Notes under the pieces: generated by a model
What the model was told of the DNA's origin: nothing
Seen by the model: only the letters and a program-made list of their open reading frames with translations
The model's database searches: none
Position numbers and translations under genes: made by a program
Shown here: positions 21,250-63,530 of the stretch, one piece after another
Layout: each line of letters begins with the position of its first letter
Position numbering within the stretch: position 1 is the first letter of the stretch
Source: Salinicola socius
Lineage (GTDB): Bacteria > Pseudomonadota > Gammaproteobacteria > Pseudomonadales > Halomonadaceae
Length of the DNA stretch: 64,000 nt
Assembly (NCBI RefSeq): GCF_001937195.1
Contig: NZ_MSDO01000022.1
Coordinates: 1 to 64,000, forward strand
Direction of reading: 5' to 3'

Positions 21250-21264
21250 CATGGACATTTCTGA
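21250..21264 (+). other. attL core
   Basis: CATGGACATTTCTGA. The bases to the left are the native motB-cheA spacer (GCGGGTGCT); the bases to the right (TTCCTATGATCG) are phage-derived and diverge from true cheA (CTTTTACGACAC). Confidence 0.9.
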
Positions 21265-21310
21265 TTCCTATGATCGCTGTCCCGCACTATCTCAATCCCT
21301 TCCAGTTTGA
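21251..21310 (+). pseudogene. Truncated cheA leader left at attL
   Basis: From the native cheA start codon the frame reads MDISD, then phage-derived codons, and stops after 19 codons at 21308-21310. It keeps the original cheA translation start at the end of the motAB message but can no longer make CheA. Confidence 0.8.
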
Positions 21311-21315
21311 CCGCT

Positions 21316-21336
21316 AAGCCGCTGATTCAGCGGCTT
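21316..21336. terminator. Inverted repeat, possible terminator of the motAB readthrough message
   Basis: Perfect 10-bp arms AAGCCGCTGA / TCAGCGGCTT around one T. It is followed by only a short T tract, so termination strength is doubtful. Confidence 0.5.
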
Positions 21337-21394
21337 TGGTTGTTCAGGATCGTTCATTCCTGTATCGCCCAACACCCTCCAAGCCAGAGCGAAA

Positions 21395-21432
21395 GTGAGT
21401 AAGATAGTGAGTAACCTTTAGGCGTTACTCAC
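21395..21432. promoter_or_regulatory. Left arm-type integrase sites (three GTGAGTA copies)
   Basis: GTGAGTA at 21395-21401 and 21407-21413 on plus, and TACTCAC (its complement) at 21426-21432, directly before the integrase gene. Three further copies lie at the right end. The arrangement is as expected for arm-type sites of a tyrosine integrase. Confidence 0.7.
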
Positions 21433-21448
21433 GGACGGCAATCCCCCT

Positions 21449-22633
21449 ATGGCTCTGACCGACACGAAGATCCGAAAGGCGAAACCGCGCGAGAAAGTCT
21501 ACCGCATGGCGGACGCCGGCGGGCTCTGCCTGGAAGTGCGGCCCAGTGGATCGAAGATCTGGCGATATCGGTATCGCCTCTTCAACACGCCGAATATGTT
21601 CACGGTGGGCGAATACCCGGTCGTCACCCTCGCCGAGGCACGCCAAACGCTCATGTGGGCACGCGGGGTCGTCAGTGAGGGGCGTCACCCGAAAGAGCAA
21701 CGCACGGCCGACATGCAGGCGCAGCGGCGGGATCGTGAATTGCTCTTCCGTCACGTAGCTGAGGAATGGTTCGAGAAGGGAGCGCGTCACTGGAGCGGTG
21801 ACTACCACACGAAGATTCGTCGGCTCCTGGATAACGAGGTTCTGCCGCAGTTTGGCGATGAGCCGCTGAAATCACTGAGTGTCGATCGTATCCATGAAGT
21901 GGTCAGCGCAATCGACAACCGCGGATCACCGACAACCGCCATCCGAGTACGGCAGACCACCGGGTCCATCTTCGATCACGCGATTATCGGGCGCCTGGTC
22001 GACGTCAATCCAACGTTGCCGTTGAAGCGGTCGGTCAAACGCCCACGCGTGAAGAATGCGCGTGCCCTCGAAGCCTACGAGCTGTTCTTCTTGCTCGACG
22101 AACTCTCACGCTCACGGTCATATCGCTCGACTGTCATTGCGATGGAACTGCTGATCTACACCATGATGCGAGGCGTCGAGCTACGCCGTGGCGTCTGGTC
22201 GGAGATCGACTTCGAGGACAGGCTGTGGCGCATACCGGCCAAGAAAATGAAGATGCGTCGCCCACATCTGATTCCGCTATCGGATCAGGCGCTCGAGCTG
22301 TTGCGAGAGCAGCGGGAATATTCTGGCCACGGTAGCGTGATCTTCCCCAATGCGAAGGATCCATCCCGACCGATCAACAACACCACGATCAACGCGGCGC
22401 TCTACCGAATGGGGTTCAAGGGGAGTGGGTTTGCGACGCATGGTTTCAGATCAACGGCGTCGACGTTTCTCAACGAAGCGGGGTGGTCGGGCGATGCTGT
22501 CGAAATGCAGCTGGCCCATGAGGACGATGACGAGGTACGCGCAACCTACAATCAGGCCAAGTACCTCGACACGCGGCGGGAGATGCTGGTTTGGTGGGCA
22601 GAGTTCGTTGATTCGTTGCGGCCGGCACCTTAG
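21449..22633 (+). CDS. Tyrosine-type phage integrase (P4-like, DUF4102 N-terminus)
   Basis: 394 residues. The N-terminal arm-binding domain starts MALTDTKIRKAKPREKVYRM...GGLCLEV; a core-binding helical domain follows (about 100-185), then the catalytic domain with Arg241 (TMMRGVE), HGFR at 331-334, His357 (QLAHED) and the nucleophile Tyr367 (ATYNQAKYL). P4-like enzymes usually use tRNA genes; here the target is the 5' end of cheA. It converges on the alpA-like gene with a 4-base overlap. Confidence 0.96.
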   Translation: MALTDTKIRKAKPREKVYRMADAGGLCLEVRPSGSKIWRYRYRLFNTPNMFTVGEYPVVTLAEARQTLMWARGVVSEGRHPKEQRTADMQAQRRDRELLFRHVAEEWFEKGARHWSGDYHTKIRRLLDNEVLPQFGDEPLKSLSVDRIHEVVSAIDNRGSPTTAIRVRQTTGSIFDHAIIGRLVDVNPTLPLKRSVKRPRVKNARALEAYELFFLLDELSRSRSYRSTVIAMELLIYTMMRGVELRRGVWSEIDFEDRLWRIPAKKMKMRRPHLIPLSDQALELLREQREYSGHGSVIFPNAKDPSRPINNTTINAALYRMGFKGSGFATHGFRSTASTFLNEAGWSGDAVEMQLAHEDDDEVRATYNQAKYLDTRREMLVWWAEFVDSLRPAP

Positions 22634-22875
22634 CCAGCCGCGTCATTGGGGAGTGACTTACCTTCCGACCATTCACGCTGGCCAGCGATATACCGATCAA
22701 TGTGTGATGCCCGCCATCGTCGGCTTCCATTGATCAGCGTGCCCGCTGGGAAGCGAGATTGCTTGATCTCGTTGTAGATCTTCGTCCTGCTGAGACTGAC
22801 CCGATCTACCACGGCAGCGATTTTGATCAGCCTGTCGTTGGGTACGAGATCATCTCCACGTTGGAATGTACTCAT
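22630..22875 (-). CDS. AlpA-family regulator, likely excisionase (Xis/Cox role)
   Basis: 81 residues from ATG 22875, which overlaps the upstream stop (ATGA). The AlpA-type winged helix is RLIKIAAVVDRVSLSRTKIYNEIKQSRFPAG...RWRASHIDRYI. In P2/P4-like elements this class controls integrase direction. It is the last gene of the early leftward operon and faces int. Confidence 0.88.
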   Translation of the reverse strand: MSTFQRGDDLVPNDRLIKIAAVVDRVSLSRTKIYNEIKQSRFPAGTLINGSRRWRASHIDRYIAGQREWSEGKSLPNDAAG

Positions 22876-23135
22876 CGTTTTCCTCTCGCTCGCCATCGGT
22901 TGAATCGGTTCTGGATCAGCCGGAACGTCGCGCCGGCTTGCTGGTTGGTATCGAGTTCCGAGCGGCTGCTAACTTGGCACGCCTTCCGGATCCAGTCGCC
23001 GGCGTCCTGCTCGGTGTGGGTGCCGTCCGGCACGTCCGCGCCAAACTTGGCGCGGGCTCGCTGGTCGAGGTAGCGCCTGAACGCTGGGTCACGGCAGAGA
23101 ATGCCCGCGGCACGGGCGTGGTGCTGGCCGCTCAT
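22872..23135 (-). CDS. Hypothetical early phage protein
   Basis: 87 residues from ATG 23135 (MSGQHHARAAGILCRDPAFRRYLD), which overlaps the upstream stop (ATGA). Basic, helical, with DGTHTEQDAGDWIRKAC in the middle. It resembles small proteins common in the early region of P2-like phages, but I cannot name a function. Confidence 0.75.
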   Translation of the reverse strand: MSGQHHARAAGILCRDPAFRRYLDQRARAKFGADVPDGTHTEQDAGDWIRKACQVSSRSELDTNQQAGATFRLIQNRFNRWRARGKR

Positions 23136-23362
23136 GATGGCTCTCCCTTGAGCCGAGCGTTTTCTATTTCTAGCGCCTGACATCTGCTGCTGAATTCCTC
23201 GCCTAGCTCCAGCGCCTCACGCAGCATGGCGTTGGACGCCTGAAGCTGATTTTCGAGTCGCGTTCCCTGGGTTCGCGCATTGTCGATGGCTCGCGCGGCG
23301 TCAGTCAGGTTTTCATGCAACAGCGCCACTTCCTGGCACAGCTCGTCGTAGCTCTTGTTCAT
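23132..23362 (-). CDS. Small coiled-coil early phage protein
   Basis: 76 residues from ATG 23362 (MNKSYDELCQEVALLHENL). Nearly all of it is heptad-like helix. It overlaps both neighbours by 4 bases, so it is coupled within the early operon. Function unknown. Confidence 0.75.
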   Translation of the reverse strand: MNKSYDELCQEVALLHENLTDAARAIDNARTQGTRLENQLQASNAMLREALELGEEFSSRCQALEIENARLKGEPS

Positions 23363-23829: not shown

Positions 23830-26175
23830 TCAGATCCCTTCCGGGAAGTACTCTTGAACGCCTTGCCACTCGGGCAGGGCTTCGGATTTGGCGAACCGGT
23901 GAGCCATGGCGCGCACCATGCGTTCCTCGATCTCGACGGATTCCATTTCTTGGCGGACCTCTTCGCTGGCGCGCCACTCTCGATACCGCTTGAGTTGCTC
24001 GTCGAGCTCCTCCTGGGTGAGTTCTTTCGGGCTCAAAAGCCCTCTGGGAACGAGGCTTTGGCCGGCCCCCGTGTCGGGGTCCGTACAGTTATTGACACAA
24101 GTCCAAGGGTCGGCGGCTTCGCCACCTCCCGAACGGCCGGCCCCTGCAGCGCTGCGCTTGGGCCGAACGTCCCAGCGATACAAGCGGGTGAGGAATTCGG
24201 CCGTGCGGCCTTTGTGATCTTTCACTACCAGGCCCTTGGGCACCTTGATCTCGTCGCCGTAACGGCCGTGCTCGACGAAGCTGCGGTTCATCTCGCCGGT
24301 GGCGTGGCTGAAGTCGTCGTCTTTATCGCCGGTGCGGAACGCGGGGATGCTCCACGGCTTGATCGGCTGTTCTCTGCGAGGGGTGTTCGGGCCGCCCATC
24401 AGGCGGACGAACTGATCCCAGTGGCCGCCCAAAGCAGCGATGCGGATCTGGCGCAGCACGTTGGAGATGCTGGCGCGGGGCTGGGTCGCTTCCTCCCAGC
24501 GCTTGAGTTCGTCTTCTTGCTGCTCGGTCAGACGGCGGACTTCGCGCCAGACCGTGACGCTCGGCAGGCCGAGGAATTGGAACTGGCGAATGCCCCACGT
24601 CGCTGCCCACGCCTCGATGCGTGGCGCCACATCTGAAAGAGAGTGGCCATAGTTGTCTAGATGATCGCCATCCACGCCGTCGCGGGCGAACTGCTCGCCG
24701 TTGATGTTCTTGCTGATGTACTTCGCGACATAGCCAGCGGCCGTGCCTTTCTTACGATCAATGACTTCGAGCTTGAATCGCGCCGTGGTCCTCTGGCCGA
24801 AGCGGTCGAACAGCTCTTCCGGTGATTCCGCCTCGGCGTAACTTCGCAGCGTCTCGGTGACGGCTTCGACGTGATCCGGCTGTGCCCACACCAATAGATG
24901 CCAGTGCGGGGTGCCGTCGTGGTGCGGCTCGACGACGCGGATGCCATAGATGCCCAGTCCATCGCGAGCAAGTGAAGCGCGGGCTTGTGCCCAGAGCTTT
25001 TGTAAATGCTGCTGTGCCTCGCGGGGTGTGCTGCCGTCGTACTTAGGATTGCGCCGCGAGCTGTTCTCCAGCACCGGGTGGAAACGTGACGGCGTGGTGA
25101 TGGTGTAGAACAGCCCGACATGCCCGAGGCGATCTGCCTCGGCTTCGGTATCGCTGATCCTCAGCATCAGCTCGGCGCGGCGGTGGTCCGGGTTCGCCAG
25201 CCCCAGCTCGGCCAATTCGGCGAGCGTGTAGACCTGATCGTTCTGGTTGATCGCTTCGATGGTTTCCAGCAAGGCGCGGTTGCGCACCTTCTGGGAGCGG
25301 CGACGCTCGACGGTCAGATCGCTGCAGTAGATGCCGGCGCGCTTATGCACGCGGCGTGCTTCGCGCATGATCTGCTCGATCTGGCGACCGGTGATCCGGC
25401 GCAGCTTGCGGCGCCACCACTTGTCACAGCCCAGGCGCGCGAGCTGGGCGGCGCGCTTCATCTTCGGGCTGGGCGGGGTGATGCCATGCAGGCGGGCACG
25501 TTCGCGTGCCTGCGTCAGCGCCATCTCATCGGCGACCGCAATGCTCATCACCGGCGCGCGTTTCCACTGGAAAACGGCCATCAGCGGTACGCTGGGTGTC
25601 GGCGGCGTCAACGGATTGCGCGCCTGGGCGATCAACAGGGAAAGGTGGCGCGCCTTGGCGGAAATGGTCTCGCCATTCAGACGCGGCAGGTGACGCGGCG
25701 GCGGCAACAGGCCGAGGCGCAGCCGGCGGTTATGGCTGGCGATGCTGCCGATCAGCTTGTTGCGGACATCCTCGACACCCAGCGCCTGGGCCTTGGCGTA
25801 ATCGACCAGCGCGTCATCGTCATGCGTGGCGTTGAGCGACCCGACGGTCAGGCGTTTCTCGACATCGGCCAGCCAGACACACCCGGCCTTCAGGCCATCG
25901 ATGGTGGTTTTGCCCTGGCGGCGGATCTCGGCAAACGCCCGGCGCAGATCGCTGGCGATGAACTGGAAGCGGCGGAAGATATGGTTCGGCTCGATCAGAT
26001 CGGCGGTATGACGTGCCAGCCAACGGTTGCCGGCGGCATTGCCGTGACGGCCGGCGACGTGGACGAACCCAGCCGCCAGATCCTCAGCCAGCGACGGCAG
26101 GCGATCGAAGAACGCCTGACGCCACTTGAGGCAATCCGGCGTTCCGAACTGGAGAGATTCGTCGATCGCGCTCAC
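23830..26175 (-). CDS. Replication initiation endonuclease (P2 gpA-like)
   Basis: 781 residues, the size of P2 gpA. The HUH-type metal motif is TPHWHLLVW near residue 424, and the two-tyrosine catalytic helix is YVAKYISKNI near 480-490. P2 gpA nicks the origin and starts rolling-circle replication; it acts on its own DNA, and the origin often lies inside the gene. The start overlaps the upstream gene by 4 bases. Confidence 0.94.
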   Translation of the reverse strand: MSAIDESLQFGTPDCLKWRQAFFDRLPSLAEDLAAGFVHVAGRHGNAAGNRWLARHTADLIEPNHIFRRFQFIASDLRRAFAEIRRQGKTTIDGLKAGCVWLADVEKRLTVGSLNATHDDDALVDYAKAQALGVEDVRNKLIGSIASHNRRLRLGLLPPPRHLPRLNGETISAKARHLSLLIAQARNPLTPPTPSVPLMAVFQWKRAPVMSIAVADEMALTQARERARLHGITPPSPKMKRAAQLARLGCDKWWRRKLRRITGRQIEQIMREARRVHKRAGIYCSDLTVERRRSQKVRNRALLETIEAINQNDQVYTLAELAELGLANPDHRRAELMLRISDTEAEADRLGHVGLFYTITTPSRFHPVLENSSRRNPKYDGSTPREAQQHLQKLWAQARASLARDGLGIYGIRVVEPHHDGTPHWHLLVWAQPDHVEAVTETLRSYAEAESPEELFDRFGQRTTARFKLEVIDRKKGTAAGYVAKYISKNINGEQFARDGVDGDHLDNYGHSLSDVAPRIEAWAATWGIRQFQFLGLPSVTVWREVRRLTEQQEDELKRWEEATQPRASISNVLRQIRIAALGGHWDQFVRLMGGPNTPRREQPIKPWSIPAFRTGDKDDDFSHATGEMNRSFVEHGRYGDEIKVPKGLVVKDHKGRTAEFLTRLYRWDVRPKRSAAGAGRSGGGEAADPWTCVNNCTDPDTGAGQSLVPRGLLSPKELTQEELDEQLKRYREWRASEEVRQEMESVEIEERMVRAMAHRFAKSEALPEWQGVQEYFPEGI

Positions 26176-28597: not shown

Positions 28598-28621
28598 ATG
28601 TCAAGCATGGAAGGTTTTCTA

Positions 28622-29275
28622 TTGTCGACCATAGGCGATCGGATTAGACAGGAGCGAGAACGGTTAGGCATGAGTCAGACCGCGTTCGCCACTCTTGGGG
28701 GTGTCGGAAAGACGACCCAGATCCACTACGAGAAAAACAACCGGAATCCCGACACCGGCTACCTGTCGGCACTCGAGGGTGCCGGGGTCGATACTGTCTA
28801 CGTGCTGACCGGTCGCCGATTCGAGACCAGTGGAGCGGGATCGCTTGAGCTGGTAGGCATTGAGAATTCTCTCCCCGTGCCGATGTATGACATCGAAGCG
28901 GCAGCAGGGGCGGGGCGGCTGTTCGACGCCGAGACGATAGGTTCGACCTTCTACCTTCCTGCCGAGCTGTTCGAGGCGGAAGGCGTGGACCCGGCCCAGG
29001 TGGTCGGCGTGACCGCGCGTGGCGATTCCATGGGCGACACGATCCGCGATCGCGAGCAGGTGCTGGTCAATCGCGCCCAGCGCATGCCGGATGGTGTGTT
29101 CCTGCTGCGCATGGACGGTGAGTTACGGCTCAAGCGCGTGCAGCGTGTGGCCGGCGGGGCGTGGTTACTGATCAGCGATAACCCGGCCTACGAGCGGGAA
29201 CTGATCAAGCCCGAGGATCTCGGCGGGGTGGAGATCATCGGGCAGGCATGGCGGAAGGTGGGAAGGGTTTTTTAA
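28622..29275 (+). CDS. CI/LexA-type phage repressor with S24 peptidase domain
   Basis: 217 residues from TTG 28622, chosen because GGAAGG lies 7 bases upstream and the product then begins STIGDRIRQERERLGMSQTAFA, a typical HTH start; ATG 28598 is the alternative and would abut the operator palindrome. The C-terminal S24 domain has the nucleophile in ARGDSMGDT and the lysine in GELRLKRVQ, so RecA-stimulated self-cleavage and SOS induction are likely. Confidence 0.93.
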   Translation: MSTIGDRIRQERERLGMSQTAFATLGGVGKTTQIHYEKNNRNPDTGYLSALEGAGVDTVYVLTGRRFETSGAGSLELVGIENSLPVPMYDIEAAAGAGRLFDAETIGSTFYLPAELFEAEGVDPAQVVGVTARGDSMGDTIRDREQVLVNRAQRMPDGVFLLRMDGELRLKRVQRVAGGAWLLISDNPAYERELIKPEDLGGVEIIGQAWRKVGRVF

Positions 29276-48143: not shown

Positions 48144-48146
48144 AGC

Positions 48147-50225: not shown

Positions 50226-50234
50226 GGGGATCCT

Positions 50235-51669: not shown

Positions 51670-51670
51670 G

Positions 51671-52744: not shown

Positions 52745-52756
52745 GCGTTGTAGAAC
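52745..52756 (-). promoter_or_regulatory. Late-operon element upstream of V
   Basis: GTTCTACAACGC on the minus strand, 86 bases before the V start, identical in sequence and spacing to the FI copy. Confidence 0.75.
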
Positions 52757-52820
52757 GGGCGGTTACAGAAAGCTCCCGATAGGCCGATGTTTCGCTGTAT
52801 TGCCATAAGGAGCTGGATGG

Positions 52821-53510: not shown

Positions 53511-53956
53511 CTATCCAGATAATCAAGAATGCCGTCGCTGACACGCTGGCGATCGGCATCGCTGAACCCGAGCAGCTCGCGTTCGGCGTATTTCACACGG
53601 GGTCCGTTCTCGCTGACCCGATCGCGCAGGCCATATTGGTGAGTGCGGGCGATGCTGGCGACGCGGCCGAAAAAGCCAACGGTGGCACCGTTGGGCGAGC
53701 TGCGAGTGCGCAGGTATTTGGCGGTGCGGATCTTCGAGAACATGGCATCCCGGCGGATTACGCCCTGACGATCGCGAGAGCGGCGCGGAGTAAACGGGGA
53801 GCCATCGGGGTTGTGTTGGCTCTTGATGCGTTCGCGCTGGCTGCGGCGCAGATCGGTGGCGACCAGGCGGGCAAGGCGGCGGCGTTCATGCGCCTGGAGG
53901 CGGGCGAGTAACGGAGCGAGCCAGTCGTCGAGTTGCTGGAGATCGTCAGAGGCCAT
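53507..53956 (-). CDS. Tail completion protein S-like (P2 gpS)
   Basis: 149 residues from ATG 53956 (MASDDLQQLDDWLAPLLARL). The family segment RRLARLVATDLRRSQRERIKSQHNPDGSPFTPR is clear. It overlaps R by 11 bases and converges on the cargo gene. Confidence 0.94.
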   Translation of the reverse strand: MASDDLQQLDDWLAPLLARLQAHERRRLARLVATDLRRSQRERIKSQHNPDGSPFTPRRSRDRQGVIRRDAMFSKIRTAKYLRTRSSPNGATVGFFGRVASIARTHQYGLRDRVSENGPRVKYAERELLGFSDADRQRVSDGILDYLDS

Positions 53957-54467
53957 CGGCGCCTTGCTCCCGTGGGCCATCCCATTCCGCAATCAGTTCA
54001 TAGTCGCCGTCGATGTGGGCGTTGCGGATGAGCAGTTGCCAGTGCTCGGCGGGACACTCCTCGCGCTCGAACTTGGGCATGCGATGCTCGACGTGGATCT
54101 GGCCGCGCTTTTCACCAGGACGGCAGTTGCGCTTGGCGACGACGCGCTCGGTGAGCTGGACGCGCAGTGCCAGGTCGACGGCGCTGTTACTGAGGATCTC
54201 GGCCTCAAATGAGACGGCCTGTTTCGGGTCGAGATCGGGCTGGTAGATCGAGAGCCAGTCGAGCAGCGGAATCATGACGGCGTCGATGTCGGCGGCGTAG
54301 TCGGTCAGCACCAATTGGGCAGTGTATGTGTAGCCGTGGGAGAGGTTGGGGCCACGTGCGAATTCAATCGAGCCATCTTCGACGAACGTAAGCAGGCGAT
54401 CCGGGTCGCGGCTCAGGCCGGGAACGGCGTCAATCAGGTGTTGGCGTAGAGCGTCGAGCTTTTTCAT
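53946..54467 (-). CDS. Tail completion protein R-like (P2 gpR)
   Basis: 173 residues starting MKKLDALRQHLIDAVPGL, with LSIYQPDLDP and EAEILSNSAVDLALRVQLTERV conserved. It overlaps the Rz1-like gene by 38 bases. Confidence 0.94.
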   Translation of the reverse strand: MKKLDALRQHLIDAVPGLSRDPDRLLTFVEDGSIEFARGPNLSHGYTYTAQLVLTDYAADIDAVMIPLLDWLSIYQPDLDPKQAVSFEAEILSNSAVDLALRVQLTERVVAKRNCRPGEKRGQIHVEHRMPKFEREECPAEHWQLLIRNAHIDGDYELIAEWDGPREQGADGL

Positions 54468-54735
54468 CGAGGGCGTCCGTTTCGCTTTCTGTTGCGTTCA
54501 GTGCGTCGAGGAGTCCGTTGTGCCGGATGGCGCATCGTTGGTACTGGCTGGCCCAGTCGCGCATGGTCAGCACGACATCGCGGCCGGTGCCGTCAGTCAG
54601 CGGCGGGAGCGTCTGCGGGCAGCGGGTCAGCAGCGTTTGTTGAATCGGGGGCGCGTCCGGCTGCGGCGTCGTTGAGCAAGCGGATAGCGTCATCGCCAAG
54701 GCAGACATTGCGATACATCGGCTTTTCAATCTCAC
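54430..54735 (-). CDS. Outer-membrane spanin subunit (Rz1/LysC-like lipoprotein)
   Basis: 101 residues. A signal peptide ends in the lipobox LSAC with acylated Cys20 (MTLSACSTTP), followed by a proline-rich stretch. It starts inside the Rz-like gene in another frame (143-base overlap), the classic nested spanin layout. Confidence 0.88.
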   Translation of the reverse strand: MRLKSRCIAMSALAMTLSACSTTPQPDAPPIQQTLLTRCPQTLPPLTDGTGRDVVLTMRDWASQYQRCAIRHNGLLDALNATESETDALDEKARRSTPTPD

Positions 54736-54982
54736 GGATGATTCCCCGGTCGATGATGCGTTCGTTGGCGTCGAGCGTTGAGAGCTTGGCTTCGACGATG
54801 CCAGCGATGACGGATTCGCGGGCGAGTGCCTGGCTTGCCGTTTCGCGAGCGGCCTCGATCGCGGTCAGCCGGTGGCTGTCCTCGAGCCAGCCGCGGGTGA
54901 GCCAGCCGGCGGATGCAGCGATGCCGAGTGAGCCGATTACGAGGACGATCCGCGTTTTCACTGCTCGAGCCCAGCGAGACAT
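54593..54982 (-). CDS. Inner-membrane spanin subunit (Rz/LysB-like)
   Basis: 129 residues. One N-terminal TM helix (IVLVIGSLGIAASAGWLTRGW) followed by a long periplasmic helix (LTAIEAARETASQALARES...). With the Rz1-like partner it fuses inner and outer membranes at lysis. It overlaps the endolysin gene. Confidence 0.88.
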   Translation of the reverse strand: MSRWARAVKTRIVLVIGSLGIAASAGWLTRGWLEDSHRLTAIEAARETASQALARESVIAGIVEAKLSTLDANERIIDRGIIREIEKPMYRNVCLGDDAIRLLNDAAAGRAPDSTNAADPLPADAPAAD

Positions 54983-55461
54983 AGCTCGCGTTCGGTGGCG
55001 CGGCGTTTGACCAGGCCGGCGAGTCTACGGCCGCCGGCGTAGACCCAGCGGGAGAGCTGATCGCAGGCGGCGCGGACATTGCCGGCGTTGAGTTCGCGCA
55101 GCAGCGTCGAGCGGGCGAATTTCCCTTCGCCGACGTTGAACACGAACGAGGCCAGCGCCGCACGGCGAGCCGGCGGCATGGTGGCGTTGATCTCCGGCGA
55201 GACGTCGCGGTCTATGGCGTCGAACGCTTTGCCCAGGTCGCCGGCGAGTAGCGCTTCGCATTCCTCCGGCGTTTTGGTCTGGTGGAGCTTGACGGTCGGC
55301 CCGGTGTGTCCGGTGCAGATCGTCGGGATGCCGACTGGATCCGGATAGGATTCAAGCTCGGTGCCCTCGTAGTGTTTGACGACGCCGATGGAGATCGACA
55401 GCGCGATGCCACATGCGCCGCCGATAGCACCGCCGCCGATCCAGCGACCGAGATTCTTCAC
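54958..55461 (-). CDS. SAR endolysin, GH24 lysozyme (P21/P1 Lyz type)
   Basis: 167 residues from GTG 55461, overlapping the holin stop as GTGA; an upstream ATG 55488 would add nine residues. The N-terminal weakly hydrophobic Gly/Ala-rich segment (IGGGAIGGACGIALSISIGVV) is a signal-anchor-release domain. The lysozyme triad fits E-8x-D-5x-T exactly: Glu32 (HYEG), Asp41 (YPDP), Thr47 (TICTG). Cys17 inside the SAR segment suggests thiol control. Confidence 0.92.
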   Translation of the reverse strand: MKNLGRWIGGGAIGGACGIALSISIGVVKHYEGTELESYPDPVGIPTICTGHTGPTVKLHQTKTPEECEALLAGDLGKAFDAIDRDVSPEINATMPPARRAALASFVFNVGEGKFARSTLLRELNAGNVRAACDQLSRWVYAGGRRLAGLVKRRATERELCLAGLEQ

Positions 55462-55754
55462 GATCGATCTCCCCGAATCCGTTCCCACCAGTTGCGGAGT
55501 TTCTCCAGGTACTTGGGCACGATCAGCCCGATCTGCAGCGCCAGATACGCCAGCGTCAGAACCGTGATCCAGTCGGACGGCGTCATGCCCCCGGCATGGA
55601 GCAGCGAGACGATGGCCGGCGGCGTGGTCTTGATGGCTTCGGTGGTGATGCTGAGCTGCTGGGCCATGGTCATCCCTGCGTTTGCGATGAGTAGCGTGAT
55701 CAGCACGACGATGGGGTCGGGCTGGTGATGGCGATGTCGGATCCTGTGTTTCAT
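55458..55754 (-). CDS. Holin (two-TM)
   Basis: 98 residues from ATG 55754 (MKHRIRHRHHQPDPIVVL). TM segments about 15-32 (IVVLITLLIANAGMTMA) and 62-80 (WITVLTLAYLALQIGLIV), basic C terminus. Directly before the endolysin. With a SAR endolysin it may be a pinholin-type timer. Confidence 0.82.
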   Translation of the reverse strand: MKHRIRHRHHQPDPIVVLITLLIANAGMTMAQQLSITTEAIKTTPPAIVSLLHAGGMTPSDWITVLTLAYLALQIGLIVPKYLEKLRNWWERIRGDRS

Positions 55755-55758
55755 GGCG

Positions 55759-55971
55759 TCAGTCCCATAGCTGCACGATGCGTGTGCTGGGCGCCTGGGT
55801 GGCGATATCCGGCAGCGTGACGAGGGTCGCGCTGGGCAGAATCGGGCCGAGATCGGCGAGCCCCGGGTTTGCCTCAAGAACTCGCTCGGTGACGCCGGCA
55901 GTCTGGCCATAGGCGCGATAGCAGAGCTGATCGAGCGTGTCGCCCTGCAGGCTGCGGACGGTGCGGCTCAT
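55759..55971 (-). CDS. Tail protein X-like (P2 gpX, LysM-type)
   Basis: 70 residues. The LysM-like pattern RSLQGDTLDQLCYRAYGQTAGVTERVLEANPGL matches gpX. It overlaps L by 4 bases. Confidence 0.95.
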   Translation of the reverse strand: MSRTVRSLQGDTLDQLCYRAYGQTAGVTERVLEANPGLADLGPILPSATLVTLPDIATQAPSTRIVQLWD

Positions 55972-56438
55972 ATCAGTTCCACCGTGACGTGGGAGCGGCC
56001 GAGGATCTCGCTGACCGCCCAGCGGGCGTCGCGGCGGTAGGTGTCGCTGGTCTGGTCATCGAGGTCGCCGCGGTCCCGGCTCGCCGCCGTGGCGTCGTAA
56101 TCGCGGTAGCGCTCGAGTAACTGCGCATGGGCCTCGGCGAATACGGCGCGCTTGTAGAGCGCGGGATAGATGCCAGCCGGCTGCCAGATGGGTTCCGGTA
56201 CCGAATCGACGACCAGGTAGCCGGTCTCCATCTGTTCTGCCTGCCAGTGGCGCAAAACGCGATTGGTGGTGGCCATCGCGGTCAACAGCACATCGGTGAT
56301 TCGCTGGGGCGTTACCGTGCCGTCGATGCGGTGGGCGTTGCGGAACTCAGCGGGGTCGATGTTCGGCCAGAACGGGTTGTTGGGGATCGGGTCCGCTTGG
56401 ATAGCGCTGGCGTTGCCGGTGGCGACGAAGCTGCTCAT
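55968..56438 (-). CDS. Head completion protein L-like (P2 gpL)
   Basis: 156 residues. NPFWPNIDPAEFRNAHRIDGTVTPQRI and the C-terminal RDARWAVSEILGRSHVTVELI are conserved. A 111-base gap without other genes separates it from M. Confidence 0.95.
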   Translation of the reverse strand: MSSFVATGNASAIQADPIPNNPFWPNIDPAEFRNAHRIDGTVTPQRITDVLLTAMATTNRVLRHWQAEQMETGYLVVDSVPEPIWQPAGIYPALYKRAVFAEAHAQLLERYRDYDATAASRDRGDLDDQTSDTYRRDARWAVSEILGRSHVTVELI

Positions 56439-56549
56439 TGGCGGTCCCTCCTGAATGATTGGTCCGAAAAAGGGGGTGGACGAGGGTTTCGGGAGAGCCT
56501 GGGCTTTCCGTCACCTTCGTGCCCCCTTGCCGTCGGGGTCGACTCGGTT

Positions 56550-57278
56550 TCAGCTTGAGGTTTCAGGCCCGTCGCTGGTGTTGCTTTGCTGGCTGTCGCC
56601 CGATTTGGTGTCGGGCTCAGGCTCGGCTTGTTCCTGTTTCTTGAGCTCGCGCTCGAGCGTCTCGATATCGCGCTTTACGCCGACTCGATCATTGAGCTCC
56701 CGGGCGCGCTGATACTCGGCGATTGCCTCGGACAGCTCGCCGCGGGCGCGGTGTCCGTTGCCCAGTGCCTTGTGGAGCTTGGCGCGGATCTGGTCGTGCA
56801 TATCCATTCCATCGGTGAGCGTGTCGATCTCGCGCAGAGCGTCGATCAGCGAGTCGTCGTCTTCGGCCAGTGCGAGCGCCTGGTCGGCGGATTCTTCGAC
56901 GAGGATTGCGGCAGTAGAGCGCTGGAATTGCTCGCCGGGGTCGAGATCGTGGGCGATGGCATAGCGGGCGATGGCCAGCGCGCCGTCGATATCGCCGACG
57001 TCGATGCGCCAGAGCATGACGCGCATCAGCACTTCATCCTGCGCGCCCTGGCCGGATTCCAGCACGCCGGCAACGTACTCGGCGTAGTTGGGCAGGATCT
57101 CGCGCTTGACCTCGATCTTGCGCTCGACTGACTGGATCGACTTCAACCGGCGGTAGTCCTCGAACAACTGCGCCTGCATCAGTTCGAACGCTTCGCCGTG
57201 CATTGGCTGATCGCCGGCGTCAGCCGCCGCTTTCGCGGCGGTGACACGCTCGTAGTGTCTGCGGATTGAGCTGGTCAT
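56550..57278 (-). CDS. Terminase endonuclease subunit (P2 gpM-like)
   Basis: 242 residues. The gpM segment NYAEYVAGVLESGQGAQDEVLMRVMLWRIDVGD is clear; the C terminus has a coiled coil and an acidic tail. Its start overlaps the capsid stop by one base (TAATG). It cuts at cos together with P. Confidence 0.95.
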   Translation of the reverse strand: MTSSIRRHYERVTAAKAAADAGDQPMHGEAFELMQAQLFEDYRRLKSIQSVERKIEVKREILPNYAEYVAGVLESGQGAQDEVLMRVMLWRIDVGDIDGALAIARYAIAHDLDPGEQFQRSTAAILVEESADQALALAEDDDSLIDALREIDTLTDGMDMHDQIRAKLHKALGNGHRARGELSEAIAEYQRARELNDRVGVKRDIETLERELKKQEQAEPEPDTKSGDSQQSNTSDGPETSS

Positions 57279-58297
57279 TACTCCCCACCTTCCGCGGTGG
57301 CGGCTTCGGCATCTTCGTGCGTGATGCCTTCCAGCAAGCAGCCGTAGCCGTAGTCCTCGATGACGTAGGCGTCATTGCTGGACTCGTAGTTGACGATGCG
57401 CTTGCGTTCGGGCTTCTCGATCAGATGGCGGCGGCGCGAGCCTTCTTGCCAGTAGATCGAGAGGTTGTCGGTGGAGGTGATGAAGATCGCGTTGTCCGGC
57501 ATGAACGGCACCTGGATGGCGTTCTGCCCACCCATGCGCTTGGCAGCCATGATCAGATCGAGCGCGCGCGCCTCGGTGGGCTGCTCCCACTCGTTGATCT
57601 TCGGCAGATACTTCTCGGTCATCATCGAGCGGCCGACCAGGGCGACGAGATCGGTGTTGTCCCGGTACCACGGCTCGACCAGCGAGTTGACGGCTTCGTA
57701 GACCAGCGCGTCGAGGTTCTGGAACTCCTGGCCCTTGCCGATCTTCACGCCGTTGATGACGCGGGCGCTGGCGTTGTTGCGGTACTGCTGCAGCCAGCCG
57801 ATGTTGACGTCTTCCAGCATCGGATTGGCGGTGCGATCCGTCTGCGTGGCGGCCGTCTTGCCGTGGAAACCGATCATGATCCGATCGAGCGCCTGCTGAC
57901 GGATGATGGCGTCGCGCACGCGGGCCTGAAAATCGGGGAACTTGGACCAGGCATCGAGCTTGGCCCAGGTGATGAAGGTGTCGAACTCTGTCGAGTGGCA
58001 CTCGTAGTCTTGCGGCTCGAGGTTGGTCGGATCGACGGGAACGCGGTCTTGCTTGCTGACATCGGTACGGCCGGCGATGGGGCCGGTGATGCCGAGGCCC
58101 AGTTTTTGCCCCTTGAGATCGCGAACACCAGTCATGTTGACGCGGCTCAGGAACTCGCTGGATTCCTGGATCTTGGTCTCGAGCGTCTGCTGGACGGTCG
58201 CCTCGACCTCGAACGCACTGAATGCGTTCTCGGCGCCACTGAGCTGAGCGAGCCGCGCGGCGTAGGCGTTGAAGAGTTTTCGGGTTTCGTTGCGCAT
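57278..58297 (-). CDS. Major capsid protein (P2 gpN-like)
   Basis: 339 residues starting MRNETRKLFNAYAARLAQL, with the family helices and ESSEFLSRVNMTGV, MGGQNAIQVPFMPDNAIFIT and YEGSRRR-type segments. HK97-fold shell protein; the N terminus is normally trimmed by O. Confidence 0.97.
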   Translation of the reverse strand: MRNETRKLFNAYAARLAQLSGAENAFSAFEVEATVQQTLETKIQESSEFLSRVNMTGVRDLKGQKLGLGITGPIAGRTDVSKQDRVPVDPTNLEPQDYECHSTEFDTFITWAKLDAWSKFPDFQARVRDAIIRQQALDRIMIGFHGKTAATQTDRTANPMLEDVNIGWLQQYRNNASARVINGVKIGKGQEFQNLDALVYEAVNSLVEPWYRDNTDLVALVGRSMMTEKYLPKINEWEQPTEARALDLIMAAKRMGGQNAIQVPFMPDNAIFITSTDNLSIYWQEGSRRRHLIEKPERKRIVNYESSNDAYVIEDYGYGCLLEGITHEDAEAATAEGGE

Positions 58298-58305
58298 GGT
58301 CTCTC

Positions 58306-59127
58306 TCAGCAGTCGGTTTCGATGGAGTCGTTACCGCCGGTGGCCGGCTGGCGTTGTTTGAATCGCGGCGTCTTGTCGAGCGTCGAATAGAGTTCCTCGA
58401 AGCGCGTCTTCAGGTCGGCGTGCGCGGTCTGCAGTTCGCTGAATGCGGTGGCGGTGGGGCGCTTGGCGAGATCGTCGGCCAGTTCGCCGTGACGCTTCAC
58501 GAATAGACCCAGGGTTTCCTCCAGCTCTGAGCGGAAGGCGTCGAAACCCTTGTCGGTCTTGGCGTCGTGCTTGGCGAACAACGCCTTGACGCGGTCAGTG
58601 AGCGAGGGCCCTTTCTCCGGTTGTTCGGAGAAATCGAACTCGGTTTCCACCGCTTCGGAGAACAGGTTGTCTGGGCGCTGTTTGCGGCTGGCCAGCGGAG
58701 ACTCGCCGCCATCTTTCGCTTGCTGGGCGCTGAACTGGAGCATCGAGGTGCCGAGCGAAGCGGGGGTGTCGGTGACAGCCAGGCCGACCAGGTACGCCTC
58801 GCCGGTATCGGCGAACTCGGGGTCGACCTCCATGCTGGTGTAAACCTTCTGGCGCTTCTCGTTCAGTGCCTTCAGCTCATCGGTAGGATCGATCTCGGCG
58901 AGGAGTTGCAGTTTCCCGGCGGCGTTCTTCTCGGCCTTGAGCGCGGTGACGTCCCCGTAGCTCTTGAACGGGCTATCCGGCAATACGCCCTTGATGTGCT
59001 CGAGATTGATTCGGCAGCCGTAAGTATCGGGATTGAAATTGGCGGCCATTTGTTCGAGCCAGGCGGCATCGATCTTGCGGCCGTCGGTGGTGGCGCCTTC
59101 GGTAGCGATGCGGTGCCATTTCGGCAT
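58306..59127 (-). CDS. Scaffold/maturation protease (P2 gpO-like)
   Basis: 273 residues from ATG 59127 (MPKWHRIATEGATTDGR). The serine-protease half shows a likely triad Asp20 (RKIDA), His44 (NLEHIKG) and Ser98 (VYTSMEV), and the helical C-terminal half is the scaffold. First gene of the O-N-M-L-X-lysis-R-S operon. Confidence 0.95.
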   Translation of the reverse strand: MPKWHRIATEGATTDGRKIDAAWLEQMAANFNPDTYGCRINLEHIKGVLPDSPFKSYGDVTALKAEKNAAGKLQLLAEIDPTDELKALNEKRQKVYTSMEVDPEFADTGEAYLVGLAVTDTPASLGTSMLQFSAQQAKDGGESPLASRKQRPDNLFSEAVETEFDFSEQPEKGPSLTDRVKALFAKHDAKTDKGFDAFRSELEETLGLFVKRHGELADDLAKRPTATAFSELQTAHADLKTRFEELYSTLDKTPRFKQRQPATGGNDSIETDC

Positions 59128-59215
59128 GGTGCGGTCTCCGGGAGCGAGCGGGCATTCGGGTAAACACTGTATGGGCGTCAGGTTCCGCGTCCCGGCGGTG
59201 AGTCTCAACGGATCC

Positions 59216-59227
59216 GCGTTGTAGAAC
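59216..59227 (-). promoter_or_regulatory. Late-operon element upstream of O
   Basis: GTTCTACAACGC on the minus strand, 89 bases before the O start; third copy of the element. Confidence 0.72.
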
Positions 59228-59237
59228 TACGGGTGAC

Positions 59238-59260
59238 AAACCGTTGACCGATAACGGTTT
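59238..59260. promoter_or_regulatory. Inverted repeat between the divergent O and P operons
   Basis: AAACCGTT-GACCGAT-AACGGTTT, perfect 8-bp arms, 25 bases before the P start. Could bind a regulator of the P-Q promoter. Confidence 0.5.
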
Positions 59261-59284
59261 CCGGCGCATCGGTACGCTGGCCGC

Positions 59285-61126
59285 ATGAACCTATCTCCCC
59301 AAACAGCGCCGGAAACACCGACCCAACCCGCACCGGATTCGCCGGCCGCCGTCGACTCGACGCTCGACGTCGTCGACAGCAACCGTCTGAGCGCGCGCCA
59401 TCTGTATTGGATGGGCTGGCGTATCGCTCGCATCGCCGAATTCATGGATCTACCGCGTGCCACGATCAGTAGCTGGAAACAGCGCGAACGGTGGGACGAC
59501 GCGAGTCCGACGCAGCGAGTGGAGGGTGCGCTCGAGGCGCGGATGGTCAAGCTGATCAGCAAGGACGCGAAGGAAGGTCGGGACTTCAAGGAGCTCGATT
59601 TACTGGGCCGGCAGATCGAGCGCCTGGCGCGAGTTCACAAGTACGAGGGAAGCGGGAAGGAGGGCGATCTCAACCCGAACATCGAGCGGCGCAATGCCGG
59701 CGAGAAGCGCAAGCCGAAACGCAACGATGTCGGCGACGAGGGTGTCATCCAGATCGTCGAGGCGTTCGAGGCCTCGCTGTTCGAGTACCAGCGACATTGG
59801 TACCGCGCCGGGCAGCATGAGCGGATCCGCAACCTGCTCAAAAGCCGCCAGATCGGCGCGACGTGGTTTTTCGCCCGCGAGGCGATTGCCGACGCGGTTG
59901 AGACGGGCAAGAACAAGATTTTCATGAGCGCCAGCAAGGCCCAGGCGCACATTTTCCGGAACTACATCGTCCAGTTCGTCAAAGAGACGACGGGCGTCGA
60001 GCTCAAGGGCGATCCGATCGTTTTGAGCAACGGCGCCGAGCTGCACTTCCTGGGTACCAACGCCAAAACCGCCCAGGGCTACCACGGCGACACCTACCTC
60101 GATGAATATTTCTGGATCAATGGTTTCGAGCAGTTCCGCAAGGTGACGAGTGGGATGGCGATGCACAAGAAGTGGAAGCAGACCTACTTCAGCACGCCCA
60201 GCAGTGTGGCCCATGAGGCCTACCCGTTCTGGACCGGCGAGCGATTCAACAAGCGCCGAGCGAAAGCGGATCGTGTCGAGATCGATGTGAGTCATGCGGG
60301 TCTGGCCGGCGGTGCGCGGGGGGCGGATGGGCAGTGGCGCCAGATCGTGACGATCGAGGATGCCGTGGCCGGCGGCTGTGACCTGTTCGATATCGATCAG
60401 CTGCGTCTCGAGTACTCGGACGACGAGTTCGCGAACCTGTTGATGTGCGAGTTCGTCGATGACAGCCAGTCGGCGTTCCCGATGATGACCATGCAGCGAT
60501 GCATGGTCGATAGCTGGGACGTTTGGCGGGATTGGAAGCCGTTCGCGATGCGGCCGTTCGGCCAGGCGCCGGTGTGGATCGGCTACGACCCGGCGGGCGA
60601 TGGCGAGGGCAGCGACGGCGCGGGGTTGGTCGTGCTGGCCCCTGCGAAGAACCGCAACGACAAGCATCGAATCCTCGAGAAGCACCGCATCAAGGGGCAG
60701 GACTACGAGGCCCAGGCCGAGTTCATCCGTCAGATTACTCAGCGCTACAACGTCCAGTTCATCGGCATCGATACCAACGGCATGGGCGAGGCGGTGGCCC
60801 AGTTGGTCGCGAAGTTCTTCCCGCGCGTCACGCGGTACCGCTACACACCCGACAGCAAGGCGGCGCTCGTTCGCCAGGCACAGCACATCATCGACAAAGG
60901 GCGGCTGGAGTTCGACGCACGGGACGTGATCATCGCGCAGTCGTTCTCTTCGATACGCCGCGAGCTGACCGCGAGCGGCCGCCAATTCACCTACGCCGCG
61001 GGCCGGAACAATCAGACCGGCCACGCGGATCTGGCCTGGGCAACCATGCATGCCCTTCATAACGAACCGATCGACGTGCTGGCCGAAGGCGAGCGCGGCA
61101 AATCCATGATGGAGATCTACGGATGA
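59285..61126 (+). CDS. Terminase ATPase large subunit (P2 gpP-like)
   Basis: 613 residues. An N-terminal HTH (RIAEFMDLPRATISSWKQRE), an atypical Walker A in LKSRQIGATWFFARE near residue 193, Walker B-like TYLDEYFWI near 273, and a C-terminal RNase H-like nuclease part with GYDPAGDGEGSDG and IGIDTNGMG. It pumps DNA into the head. Divergent from O; overlaps Q by 4 bases. Confidence 0.97.
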   Translation: MNLSPQTAPETPTQPAPDSPAAVDSTLDVVDSNRLSARHLYWMGWRIARIAEFMDLPRATISSWKQRERWDDASPTQRVEGALEARMVKLISKDAKEGRDFKELDLLGRQIERLARVHKYEGSGKEGDLNPNIERRNAGEKRKPKRNDVGDEGVIQIVEAFEASLFEYQRHWYRAGQHERIRNLLKSRQIGATWFFAREAIADAVETGKNKIFMSASKAQAHIFRNYIVQFVKETTGVELKGDPIVLSNGAELHFLGTNAKTAQGYHGDTYLDEYFWINGFEQFRKVTSGMAMHKKWKQTYFSTPSSVAHEAYPFWTGERFNKRRAKADRVEIDVSHAGLAGGARGADGQWRQIVTIEDAVAGGCDLFDIDQLRLEYSDDEFANLLMCEFVDDSQSAFPMMTMQRCMVDSWDVWRDWKPFAMRPFGQAPVWIGYDPAGDGEGSDGAGLVVLAPAKNRNDKHRILEKHRIKGQDYEAQAEFIRQITQRYNVQFIGIDTNGMGEAVAQLVAKFFPRVTRYRYTPDSKAALVRQAQHIIDKGRLEFDARDVIIAQSFSSIRRELTASGRQFTYAAGRNNQTGHADLAWATMHALHNEPIDVLAEGERGKSMMEIYG

Positions 61127-62181
61127 CAGCTACGGCCGACAAACCGCGCGTCCGCGTGCCCGCAACGCTAACCGCGTCGACGCCGGCACGGGCGGAATCT
61201 TTCACGTTCGGCGATCCGGTCCCGGTCATCGACATGCACGACTTTCTCTACACCGGCTGCTGGATGCTGGGTTCGCGATGGTTCGAACCGCCGGTGGATC
61301 TGCCAGCGCTGGCGCGGACCTATCGGGCGACGGCGCACCACGGTTCATCGCTGCAGGTGAAGCGAAACATTCTGACGCGGTCGTTCATTCCGCACCCGTT
61401 GCTGAGCCGCCGGGCGTTCCGGTCGCTGGTGAACGATTACCTGGTGTTCGGCAACGCCTACGCCGAGCGCGTTTTCGGTCGGCTGGGTCGGCTACTCGAG
61501 ATCCGGCCGGCGCAGGCGAGATACGTGCGCCGAGGCGTCGAATCGGGACAGTTCTGGTGGACGTGCGACTGGCGCCAGCCGGTGGAGTTCGAGCGCGACT
61601 CGGTCATTCATCTGATGGAGCCGGACATCAACCAGGAGATCTACGGCGTGCCGGACTACCTGGGCGCCATGCAATCGATCCTGTTGAACGAGAACGCCAC
61701 GCTGTTCCGTCGCAAGTATTACCTCAACGGCAGCCACGCCGGATTCATCCTCAACGTCACCGACGAGGCGATGAATCAGGAAGACATCGACGCCATGCGC
61801 GAGGCGCTGAAATCGTCGAAGGGGCCGGGCAATTTCCGGAACCTGTTCCTGTATACGCCGGGTGGCAAAAAGGACGGGGTGCAGCTGATCCCGATCAGCG
61901 AGGTGGCGGCCAAAGACGAGTTCGCCGGTATCAAGAACGTGACGCGCGACGACACGCTGGCCGGGCATCGGGTACCGCCGCAGCTGATGGGCGTGATGCC
62001 GAACAACGTCGGCGGATTCGGTGACGTGGAGAAAGCGGCACGGGTATTCGTGACCAACGAGCTCGAGCCGCTGCAGGCGGTGTTTCTCGAGATCAACGAC
62101 ATCGTGGATCAAGAGGTGGTGCGGTTCCGGCCGTATGAGCTGGGCGCGGCCCAGGAGGAGGAGGGAGTACCACTCGTCTAG
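61123..62181 (+). CDS. Portal protein (P2 gpQ-like)
   Basis: 352 residues, P2 Q length. HGSSLQVKRNILTRSFIPHPLLSR, VFGNAYAERVFGRLGR and LAGHRVPPQLMGVMPNNVGGFGDVEKAARVF are family segments. It forms the dodecameric DNA gate. A GC-rich hairpin without a T run follows at 62186-62207. Confidence 0.97.
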   Translation: MTATADKPRVRVPATLTASTPARAESFTFGDPVPVIDMHDFLYTGCWMLGSRWFEPPVDLPALARTYRATAHHGSSLQVKRNILTRSFIPHPLLSRRAFRSLVNDYLVFGNAYAERVFGRLGRLLEIRPAQARYVRRGVESGQFWWTCDWRQPVEFERDSVIHLMEPDINQEIYGVPDYLGAMQSILLNENATLFRRKYYLNGSHAGFILNVTDEAMNQEDIDAMREALKSSKGPGNFRNLFLYTPGGKKDGVQLIPISEVAAKDEFAGIKNVTRDDTLAGHRVPPQLMGVMPNNVGGFGDVEKAARVFVTNELEPLQAVFLEINDIVDQEVVRFRPYELGAAQEEEGVPLV

Positions 62182-62301: not shown

Positions 62302-63063
62302 ATGTCCCAGAAACCGATTCTTCCATGGATGGGCGGCAAGCGTCGCCTCGCGAAACAGATCTTGCCGCTGTTCCAACCCCACCACACGTACGTGGAGCCA
62401 TTCTGTGGAGGCGCCGCGCTCTACTTCATGAAAGAGCCCAGCCGGGTGGAGGTGATCAATGATGCCCATGGCGAGTTGGTCAATCTCTATCGGATCGTCA
62501 AACATCACCTCGAGGAACTCGTTCGGCAATTTCGCTGGGCCCTGGTCAGCCGAGAGGAGTATCTCACCCAGCGCGACATCGATCCTGCGCATCTGACCGA
62601 TATCCAACGCGCCGCGAGGTTCTTCTACCTGCAGAAGCTGGCGTTTGGAGGAAAGGTCTCAGGGCAGACCTTTGGCACATCGGCGGTCAGCCCGCCGCGG
62701 CTCAACCTGCTGCGAATTGAAGAGGATCTAAGCGGGGCTCACCTTCGATTGGCGCGCACGTTGATCGAGCACCTCGACTGGGCTGAGTGCCTTCGGCGAT
62801 ATGATCGGGACGAGACGCTTTTCTACCTGGATCCACCCTACTGGGGAACCGCTGGCTACGGCCGCGACTTCGGTCTCGAGCAGTACGACCGAATGGCGGA
62901 ATTCGCCAGGAACTCAAAAGGGCAGGTGGTGATCAGCGTGAACGATATCCCCGAGATGCGAGCCGCATTCGATGGGCTCAACATCAGCACGACCCAACTC
63001 AAGTACACCGTCGGACGTCAGACGACAGAAGCGCGCGGGGAACTCATCATCTCCAATCGCTGA
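62302..63063 (+). CDS. D12-class N6-adenine DNA methyltransferase (Dam-like)
   Basis: 253 residues. SAM-binding motifs PWMGGKRRLAKQILP and YVEPFCGGAALYF at the N terminus; catalytic DPPY at about 177-180 in YLDPPYWGT. Alpha-class Dam fold, probably GATC-type. No cognate nuclease is next to it, so an orphan methylase for self-protection or regulation. LexA box upstream. Confidence 0.93.
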   Translation: MSQKPILPWMGGKRRLAKQILPLFQPHHTYVEPFCGGAALYFMKEPSRVEVINDAHGELVNLYRIVKHHLEELVRQFRWALVSREEYLTQRDIDPAHLTDIQRAARFFYLQKLAFGGKVSGQTFGTSAVSPPRLNLLRIEEDLSGAHLRLARTLIEHLDWAECLRRYDRDETLFYLDPPYWGTAGYGRDFGLEQYDRMAEFARNSKGQVVISVNDIPEMRAAFDGLNISTTQLKYTVGRQTTEARGELIISNR

Positions 63064-63084
63064 CGGTTGCACTGGCACGAAACG

Positions 63085-63107
63085 GCCGCCCACTCGGGCG
63101 GCTTTTT
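63085..63107 (+). terminator. Rho-independent terminator after dam
   Basis: GCCGCCC-ACTC-GGGCGGC followed by TTTTT. Confidence 0.92.
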
Positions 63108-63168
63108 CGTGGGCGTCGCTGAGGTCGTTGAGGGTTACCCACACGTCGCCCAGCACCGCTGCCGCGCC

Positions 63169-63187
63169 GTCGACTCCCCGCCCCGCC
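63169..63187 (-). other. Candidate cos site
   Basis: The minus strand reads GGCGGGGCGGGGAGTCGAC, resembling the P2 cohesive end GGCGAGGCGGGGAAAGCAC at the first 13 positions with one change. It lies beyond Q, near one end of the packaging genes, as in P2-like phages. Confidence 0.65.
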
Positions 63188-63406
63188 TGCGCGCTAAATG
63201 GGTCGGTTTTGTTGCAGTGATGCAGATGGTGGCAGGCCGCGCCGTTGCTGGGGCGTCCCACGGTTTTACAACGGAATTTTTCGATGCGGAGTGGTGCGTT
63301 TTGACGATGGTGGGTCGTGGGGTGAGCCTGTGGGCACCGTTAGGTCCACTGATGGTGAGCGAATTGATTAAAGGGGACCAGACCAGCTGCCGATAGTGAG
63401 GTCATC

Positions 63407-63458
63407 GTGAGTAGCGACCATATGCTGACTTAGACCATTGTGAGTAGGAACGTGAGTA
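63407..63458 (+). promoter_or_regulatory. Right arm-type integrase sites (three GTGAGTA copies)
   Basis: GTGAGTA at 63407-63413, 63440-63446 and 63452-63458, same motif as beside int at the left end. Confidence 0.7.
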
Positions 63459-63464
63459 AGCATC

Positions 63465-63493
63465 TTGGTTAATGCTTTTAAAGTCCATATAAA
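63465..63493 (+). promoter_or_regulatory. Phage-borne putative promoter now in front of cheA
   Basis: TTGGTT, 17-base spacer, TATAAA: good spacing and a 5/6 -10 match for a sigma-70 promoter, 23 bases before the cheA ATG. A TAAAGTCC nearby resembles a sigma-28 -35 but its -10 is poor. Confidence 0.5.
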
Positions 63494-63515
63494 TCAATGG
63501 TATAGGTTCGCCAAA

Positions 63516-63530
63516 CATGGACATTTCTGA
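63516..63530 (+). other. attR core at the cheA start codon
   Basis: CATGGACATTTCTGA. Left flank (GGTTCGCCAAA) is phage, right flank continues the true cheA coding sequence. The start codon itself lies inside the core, so cheA codons 1-5 are restored. Confidence 0.92.

Follow-up and report, generated by a model that had tools for sequence, protein, structure and literature searches.

A P2-like prophage on the start codon of cheA in Salinicola socius: probable replacement of the promoter by one of the same regulon, with a phage-borne chemoreceptor

A phage inserted into an operon is usually taken either to disrupt it or to act as a switch. In active lysogeny, as with the comK prophage of Listeria, the host gene is inactive until the phage excises. 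Here we describe a prophage on the start codon of the chemotaxis kinase gene cheA in Salinicola socius, within a 64,000-nucleotide stretch (hereafter the window; RefSeq assembly GCF_001937195.1, contig NZ_MSDO01000022.1, positions 1 to 64,000 of the forward strand). As in the comK case, a prophage that could leave by precise excision interrupts a host gene, but here cheA is left whole and with an apparent promoter. On the sequence evidence set out below, the phage probably substitutes a promoter of the same regulon for that of cheA and contributes a receptor, which amounts to promoter replacement and not to a switch. With such a same-regulon control region, integration at an otherwise costly site would be nearly neutral, and the phage would be able to hold a position in the chemotaxis system; for annotation, if such a prophage were cut out in silico, the promoter running the host gene would go with it.

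Phage-borne replacement promoters are already known. The nearest in mechanism is phage HK022 at torS of Escherichia coli, where a phage promoter is reported to alter torS regulation and raise expression (Carey et al. 2019, PMC6814406). There too a host signalling gene is cut from its native promoter and driven from a promoter in the phage end, whereas at cheA the phage promoter resembles the sigma class of the native operon, the start codon itself is the site of insertion, and the phage brings a receptor that belongs to the same pathway. Nearest in position, and in rescue after decay, are the chromosomal islands at mutL of Streptococcus pyogenes: SpyCIM1 switches mutL by excision, and a cryptic promoter within the dead int gene of the decayed SpyCIM5 rescues mutL (PMC3430984). 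The likeness is a site-specific element at the 5' end of an operon's second gene; unlike in SpyCIM5, the promoter here would lie in an attachment (att) arm of a complete-looking phage and recur in relics. Temperate phages that alter host motility with a motility gene of their own are described from Enterobacter (PMC13418256), whose prophages remodel flagellin by the RNA-guided repressor TldR and a phage flagellin, FliCP; the present phage would instead bring a replacement promoter and a chemoreceptor. New here are the regulon match, its recurrence in relics, the coupled receptor and a trp replica in a clade-mate; among the top matches listed from the open-licence literature, there was no prophage at a cheA start codon and no phage methyl-accepting chemotaxis protein (MCP) with a flagellar promoter.

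The features that define the insertion are as follows.
19320..19346, forward strand: native sigma-28-type motA box, TCAAG-N-GCTGCCGATA (by motif)
19389..20276, forward strand: motA, 295 amino acids, GTG start (identity by eye and from operon context)
20273..21202, forward strand: motB
21250..21264, forward strand: left att core, attL (exact repeat)
21316..21336, forward strand: terminator-like stem-loop just inside attL (hairpin scan)
21395..21432, no strand assigned: three left-arm integrase-binding-type sites GTGAGTAA, at 21395, 21407, 21425 inverted (by motif)
63369..63395, forward strand: putative sigma-28-type promoter, TAAA-N16-GCCGATA, reading into cheA (by motif and conservation)
63407..63459, forward strand: three right-arm integrase-binding-type sites, at 63407, 63440 and 63452 (by motif)
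63516..63530, forward strand: right att core, attR, which holds the cheA start codon (exact repeat)
63517..64000, forward strand: cheA, an intact 713-amino-acid frame running beyond the window (by frame and homology)

The two att cores are the only copies of an exact 15-base-pair (bp) repeat, CATGGACATTTCTGA, for which two matches arose in 0/100 shuffles. The left copy starts 47 bp past the end of motB (21202), and the right copy contains the cheA ATG (63517), which opens the intact frame. This confirms the first-pass annotation, which had placed a prophage exactly on the cheA start codon, flanked by this repeat, with motA-motB split from a cheA left intact behind the right core. The pattern GTGAGTAR, which we take to be what arm-type integrase sites look like, occurs at six sites in the window, three per att arm and none elsewhere, which supports the prophage ends and defines the outer part of the phage as far as the cores. 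An ARAGORN scan of the window found no tRNA.

For comparison we used one genome per species, comprising 18 genomes of the genus, including the window genome (G000), and 275 of the family. In 11 of the 17 other genus genomes cheA starts 46-105 bp after motB, and G002, G008 and G017 carry the exact 15-mer at their empty sites. These are the empty sites in relatives that the first-pass annotation had proposed looking for; they bear out the splitting of motAB from cheA by the prophage and support its view that precise excision would restore motA-motB-cheA. The motB-cheA gap is about 3.1 kilobases (kb) in G006, about 500 bp in G011 and 333-372 bp in G004, G005, G013 and G015; outside the genus it measures 17-57 bp in 9/13 loci (those with a motB end recognised by the search pattern).

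We propose that a temperate P2-like phage would use its tyrosine integrase to insert into the first codons of cheA. The motAB message would end at the left-arm terminator-like hairpin or run into the phage left end, and a sigma-28 (FliA)-type promoter in the right arm would transcribe cheA and the downstream cheW from inside the prophage. Because the native operon appears to be driven by a sigma-28-type promoter before motA, cheA would remain in the same flagellar regulon, while the phage MCP, preceded by a sigma-28-like box, would add an input to host chemotaxis.

The right-arm box, TAAA-N16-GCCGATAG, has the same -10 box as the host motA promoter, and the 10-mer GCTGCCGATA is common to the two and has no other exact copy in the window. 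Upstream of motA, the box TCAAG-N-CTGCCGATA is found in 18/18 genus genomes, with a spacing of N16 in 16 and of N15 in two. For calling such boxes we took a sigma-28 (FliA) consensus of TAAA-N15-GCCGATAA-like -35 and -10 elements with a spacing of N15-16; the right-arm box has both elements, and its N16 is that of 16/18 motA boxes. The 171-kb contig has six copies of a strict form of the box, T[AC]AA-N15/16-GCCGATA, in 6/6 cases before a flagellar or chemotaxis gene (motA, cheA at attR, two receptor-like genes, cheY and flagellin, all but cheA and motA named by eye). One strict box lies in the prophage, at attR and facing cheA, where shuffled prophages average 0.05 over both strands; among shuffles of the right arm it appeared in 4/20000. 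The prophage separates cheA from its native promoter and offers, as judged from sequence, an outward promoter in the phage end adjoining cheA. We infer that the box would be an active FliA promoter and the main source of cheA messenger RNA. The claim that cheA is cut off from transcription is accordingly not supported, as a sigma-28-type promoter in the phage right arm would read into it. We also considered the right arm as native host DNA and rejected this, as it lies between the att repeats, holds three of the six integrase-type sites and is absent at empty sites.

It is unlikely that a housekeeping sigma-70 promoter or outward phage transcription mainly drives the arm, so that cheA would be constitutive and the sigma-28 box secondary. 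HK022 does drive torS by a phage promoter unlike the native one (PMC6814406), and an AT-rich stretch can be made out by eye around 63464-63493; however, a sigma-70 scan of 63000-64000 gave 0 sites, a terminator-like hairpin stands behind the phage dam gene (63084-63103), and the conserved block matches the host motA box.

Decayed copies of the element provide a natural experiment on which phage parts the host keeps. The right arm is present in 3/275 family genomes (G000, G006 and G011), each time directly before cheA. The G006 site retains, in phage order, a left arm with the hairpin stem (without its T-run), a piece of a dead integrase gene, the MCP gene, what remains of tail gene D, and the right arm; in G011 the right arm is the sole recognisable prophage part. 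The -35 TTAAAG and the -10 GCTGCCGATAG are identical in all three genomes, with 110/155 positions identical over the whole arm, and all three arm sites depart from GTGAGTAR in both relics. G006 and G011, whose cheA genes differ by 0.205 per synonymous site, are identical over the 59 bp around the promoter and over the 57 bp before position -1; all 11 of their internal differences cluster in the 39 bp that surround arm sites 2 and 3. Since arm site 1 belongs to the unchanged block, conservation is split by region and not site by site. We read the unchanged promoter and leader as pointing to selection kept up after the death of the phage.

In the cheA tree, the window species has empty G001 and G009 as neighbours, and the pair G006/G011 has empty G002 and G008. 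The synonymous divergence (dS) of the MCP gene between G000 and G006 (0.44) is below that of cheA (0.96), which suggests that the element is younger than the species split. Since empty species are thus nested among prophage and relic species and the MCP dS is the lower, at least two separate insertions appear to be the simpler reading, and a single ancestral insertion in the genus the less likely one.

The retention of a promoter facing cheA in two genomes with decayed related prophages also bears on the first-pass proposal of an on/off chemotaxis switch resembling active lysogeny, in which insertion would turn cheA off and regulated excision turn it on. The insertion does split the operon at the start codon, precise excision would restore the operon, and the chromosomal island found 5' in mutL of S. 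pyogenes provides a precedent for such switching (PMC3430984); but the switch needs a silent cheA in the lysogen and excision without lysis, neither of which is indicated. The phage has a full structural and lysis gene set, so that excision would normally lead to lysis and not to reversible switching, and no circular-junction (attP) sequence was found in the one assembly, which is itself a weak test. We thus give on/off switching little chance, and the proposal is not supported in that form; its other half, a rewiring of chemotaxis, stands insofar as cheA is uncoupled from motAB, has a weaker predicted ribosome-binding site and is accompanied by a phage chemoreceptor.

The chemoreceptor gene and the box before it are the following.
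36229..36254, forward strand: weaker sigma-28-like box upstream of the MCP gene, TCAG-N14-GCCGATAT (by eye)
36287..37963, forward strand: MCP, 558 amino acids, C-terminus EWTAF (HAMP and MCPsignal domains; phrog_8572, E 1e-106)

The protein has HAMP and MCP signalling domains and matches, along almost its entire length, phrog_8572, a PHROG family of unknown function; its C-terminus resembles what we take to be the CheR-tether pentapeptide. The spacing of its box is one base shorter than that of the motA box, and the G006 relic has TCAA-N14-GCCGATAT in its place. The G006 gene is an intact orthologue (86% amino acid identity) at a site where integrase and tail gene have decayed, and the ratio of nonsynonymous to synonymous divergence (dN/dS) between G000 and G006 is 0.16, indicating that the MCP is under purifying selection. 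We further infer that the phage MCP signals. A neutral accident, in which the site was chosen for its core sequence and both box and MCP are chance or unrelated cargo with no effect on chemotaxis, is very unlikely: the integrase clade mostly sits at the start codon of trpG, which makes start-codon targeting a habit of the clade and not specific to chemotaxis, but the frequency of the strict box against shuffles, the conservation of the promoter in relics and the selection on an MCP that outlasted int and the tail gene all speak against it.

Relatives of the MCP in G007, G010 and G014 align at 54-69% over the N-terminal part. In G010 (L123) and G014 (L129) they lie near SRAP and broken repressor genes that resemble those of the window phage, at places other than cheA, with the cheA site empty; UmuC/UmuD-like genes were matched beside the relative in G010 only. 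MCP, SRAP, UmuC/D and repressor genes may possibly form a travelling set of phage cargo. The ligand domain had no sequence match in the PDB, and no MCP relative was confirmed in viral contigs. In the phage collection 33 records match the MCP, none covering >80% of it, and several of these are large Salmonella or Escherichia contigs that, by eye, have the appearance of host DNA.

Several observations weigh against promoter replacement within the regulon, or at least against parts of it. Over the whole genome a looser pattern, TAAA-N14-17-GCCGATA, has 12 sites against 4 in a reversed control; as judged by eye, no more than about 4 or 5 of these 12 sites stand before motility genes, so that the motif alone is suggestive and not proof; its spacing in the right arm is also one base longer than what we take to be the E. 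coli consensus. In the lysogen cheA has a weaker predicted ribosome-binding site (-3.9 against about -6 kcal/mol), and the level of CheA may therefore change, making a dose effect possible. Part of the arm conservation may be inherited phage constraint and not host selection. As for the end of the motAB message, the left-arm terminator is weak: a terminator hit also arose in 9/200 arm shuffles, a terminator scan of the left region found 1 where shuffles had a mean of 2.0, and a terminator is present in 4/11 related left arms; on this last count we rejected a left-arm terminator as a rule of the integrase clade.

Four congeners without the phage arm, which form a clade, have a box of their own before cheA. 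In G004, G015, G005 and G013 (L034, L035, L036 and L038) TAAA-N15-GCCGATAG lies in the 333-372 bp gap, with a -10-to-ATG distance of 118-119 against 120 in the phage arm; the phage arm was considered as the source of this box, but with the box masked the similarity of these regions to the arm is close to that of shuffles, 19 to 146 of 500 of which reach it.

The integrase clade, cut off at E <= 1e-75, is represented in 12/275 family genomes. In eight of these trpG lies at the other att side: in G030, G008, G031, G177, G274, G287 and G224 both sides are on one contig, whereas those of G129 are spread over two. For G219 the sole trace is a left core resembling the start of TrpG, and G121 and G077 are inserted elsewhere or could not be placed. 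The elements of G008, G030 and G031 are phages that share little with the window phage beyond the integrase. In G008, of the same genus as the window, the prophage parts trpG from the promoter, leader and attenuator that natively control it, and the right arm of the prophage repeats the native trp control region, with TTGACA-N17-CACTAT, a Trp-containing leader peptide and a GC-rich hairpin followed by a T-run.
L041:7380-7545 and L152:1255-1405, no strand assigned: G008 loci of the trpG prophage with its trp control-region replica

The arm scores 54 against the native trp region; with each of two native regions, 2000 mononucleotide shuffles never scored above 37, and the best score among 596 tiles of the G008 element was 41. 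The replica is found in one of the seven complete trpG right arms, that of G008, and the other six have none; nor did a sigma-70 promoter stand above shuffles in any of the seven (the score was reached by 119 to 336 of 400). In viral contigs the exact right-arm pattern had 0 matches and the integrase one relative, at 35%; the genome_contigs set held 24 integrase loci, the full-length ones at 31-46% identity. Phage-derived DNA is also described where these closest integrase relatives insert: trpE/trpG of Pseudomonas aeruginosa is a hotspot of pyocin clusters, which have no integrase and for which, unlike in G008, the passages of the source consulted mention no regulatory replica (PMC13075995).

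From these cases we draw, tentatively and as somewhat less probable than not, a picture of regulatory mimicry. An integrase clade of otherwise unrelated phages would land on start codons, and the right arm could replicate the control region of the target and so spare its regulation (sigma-28 at cheA, trp in G008). The cheA lineage would have switched its target from trpG to cheA, together with a matching control region, and then plugged its own chemoreceptor into the flagellar regulon; decayed copies would keep the promoter and, in one case, the receptor. The trpG relatives make the general idea testable, by setting the right arm of a start-codon integrator against the regulation of its target gene. 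At 21265-21290, on the phage side of attL, lies TCCTATGATCG, similar to the trpG core of the clade-mates, TCCTCATGATCG; it could be a vestige of an earlier integration target.

The remaining genes between the repeats are listed here.
21449..22633, forward strand: tyrosine integrase (PF00589, PF13356, PF22022)
22630..22896, reverse strand: AlpA/excisionase-like regulator (profile matches)
23830..26175, reverse strand: gpA-type replication protein (phrog_91)
28598..29275, forward strand: S24/helix-turn-helix repressor (profile matches)
38015..62181, no strand assigned: P2-like tail, baseplate, lysis, head and packaging genes (profile matches)
62302..63063, forward strand: Dam-type DNA methyltransferase (profile matches)

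By its gene content the prophage is complete-looking and P2-like. It encodes the tyrosine integrase, the AlpA/Cox-like protein, the gpA-type replication protein and the S24 repressor, as well as capsid, scaffold, both terminase subunits, portal, tail and baseplate and, for lysis, endolysin and holin. A P2-type set of capsid, scaffold, portal, terminase, sheath, tape measure and baseplate genes, with gpA for replication, marks it as a Peduoviridae-type phage. When eight proteins were run through PADLOC, the methyltransferase was the sole match. Between the repressor and the MCP gene (29380-35087) lies cargo encoding an NA37 nucleoid protein, SRAP, a PgpA-like phosphatase and UmuC/UmuD-like proteins, and a HicB-like antitoxin with a small upstream open reading frame (35333-35939) adjoins the MCP gene. 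The portal protein is 73% identical to that of Bacillus phage vB_BpuM-ZY1 and 71% to that of Halomonas phage vB_HboP_4908; the former record (OR820920.1) bears the host label Bacillus despite this match, and the label may deserve checking.

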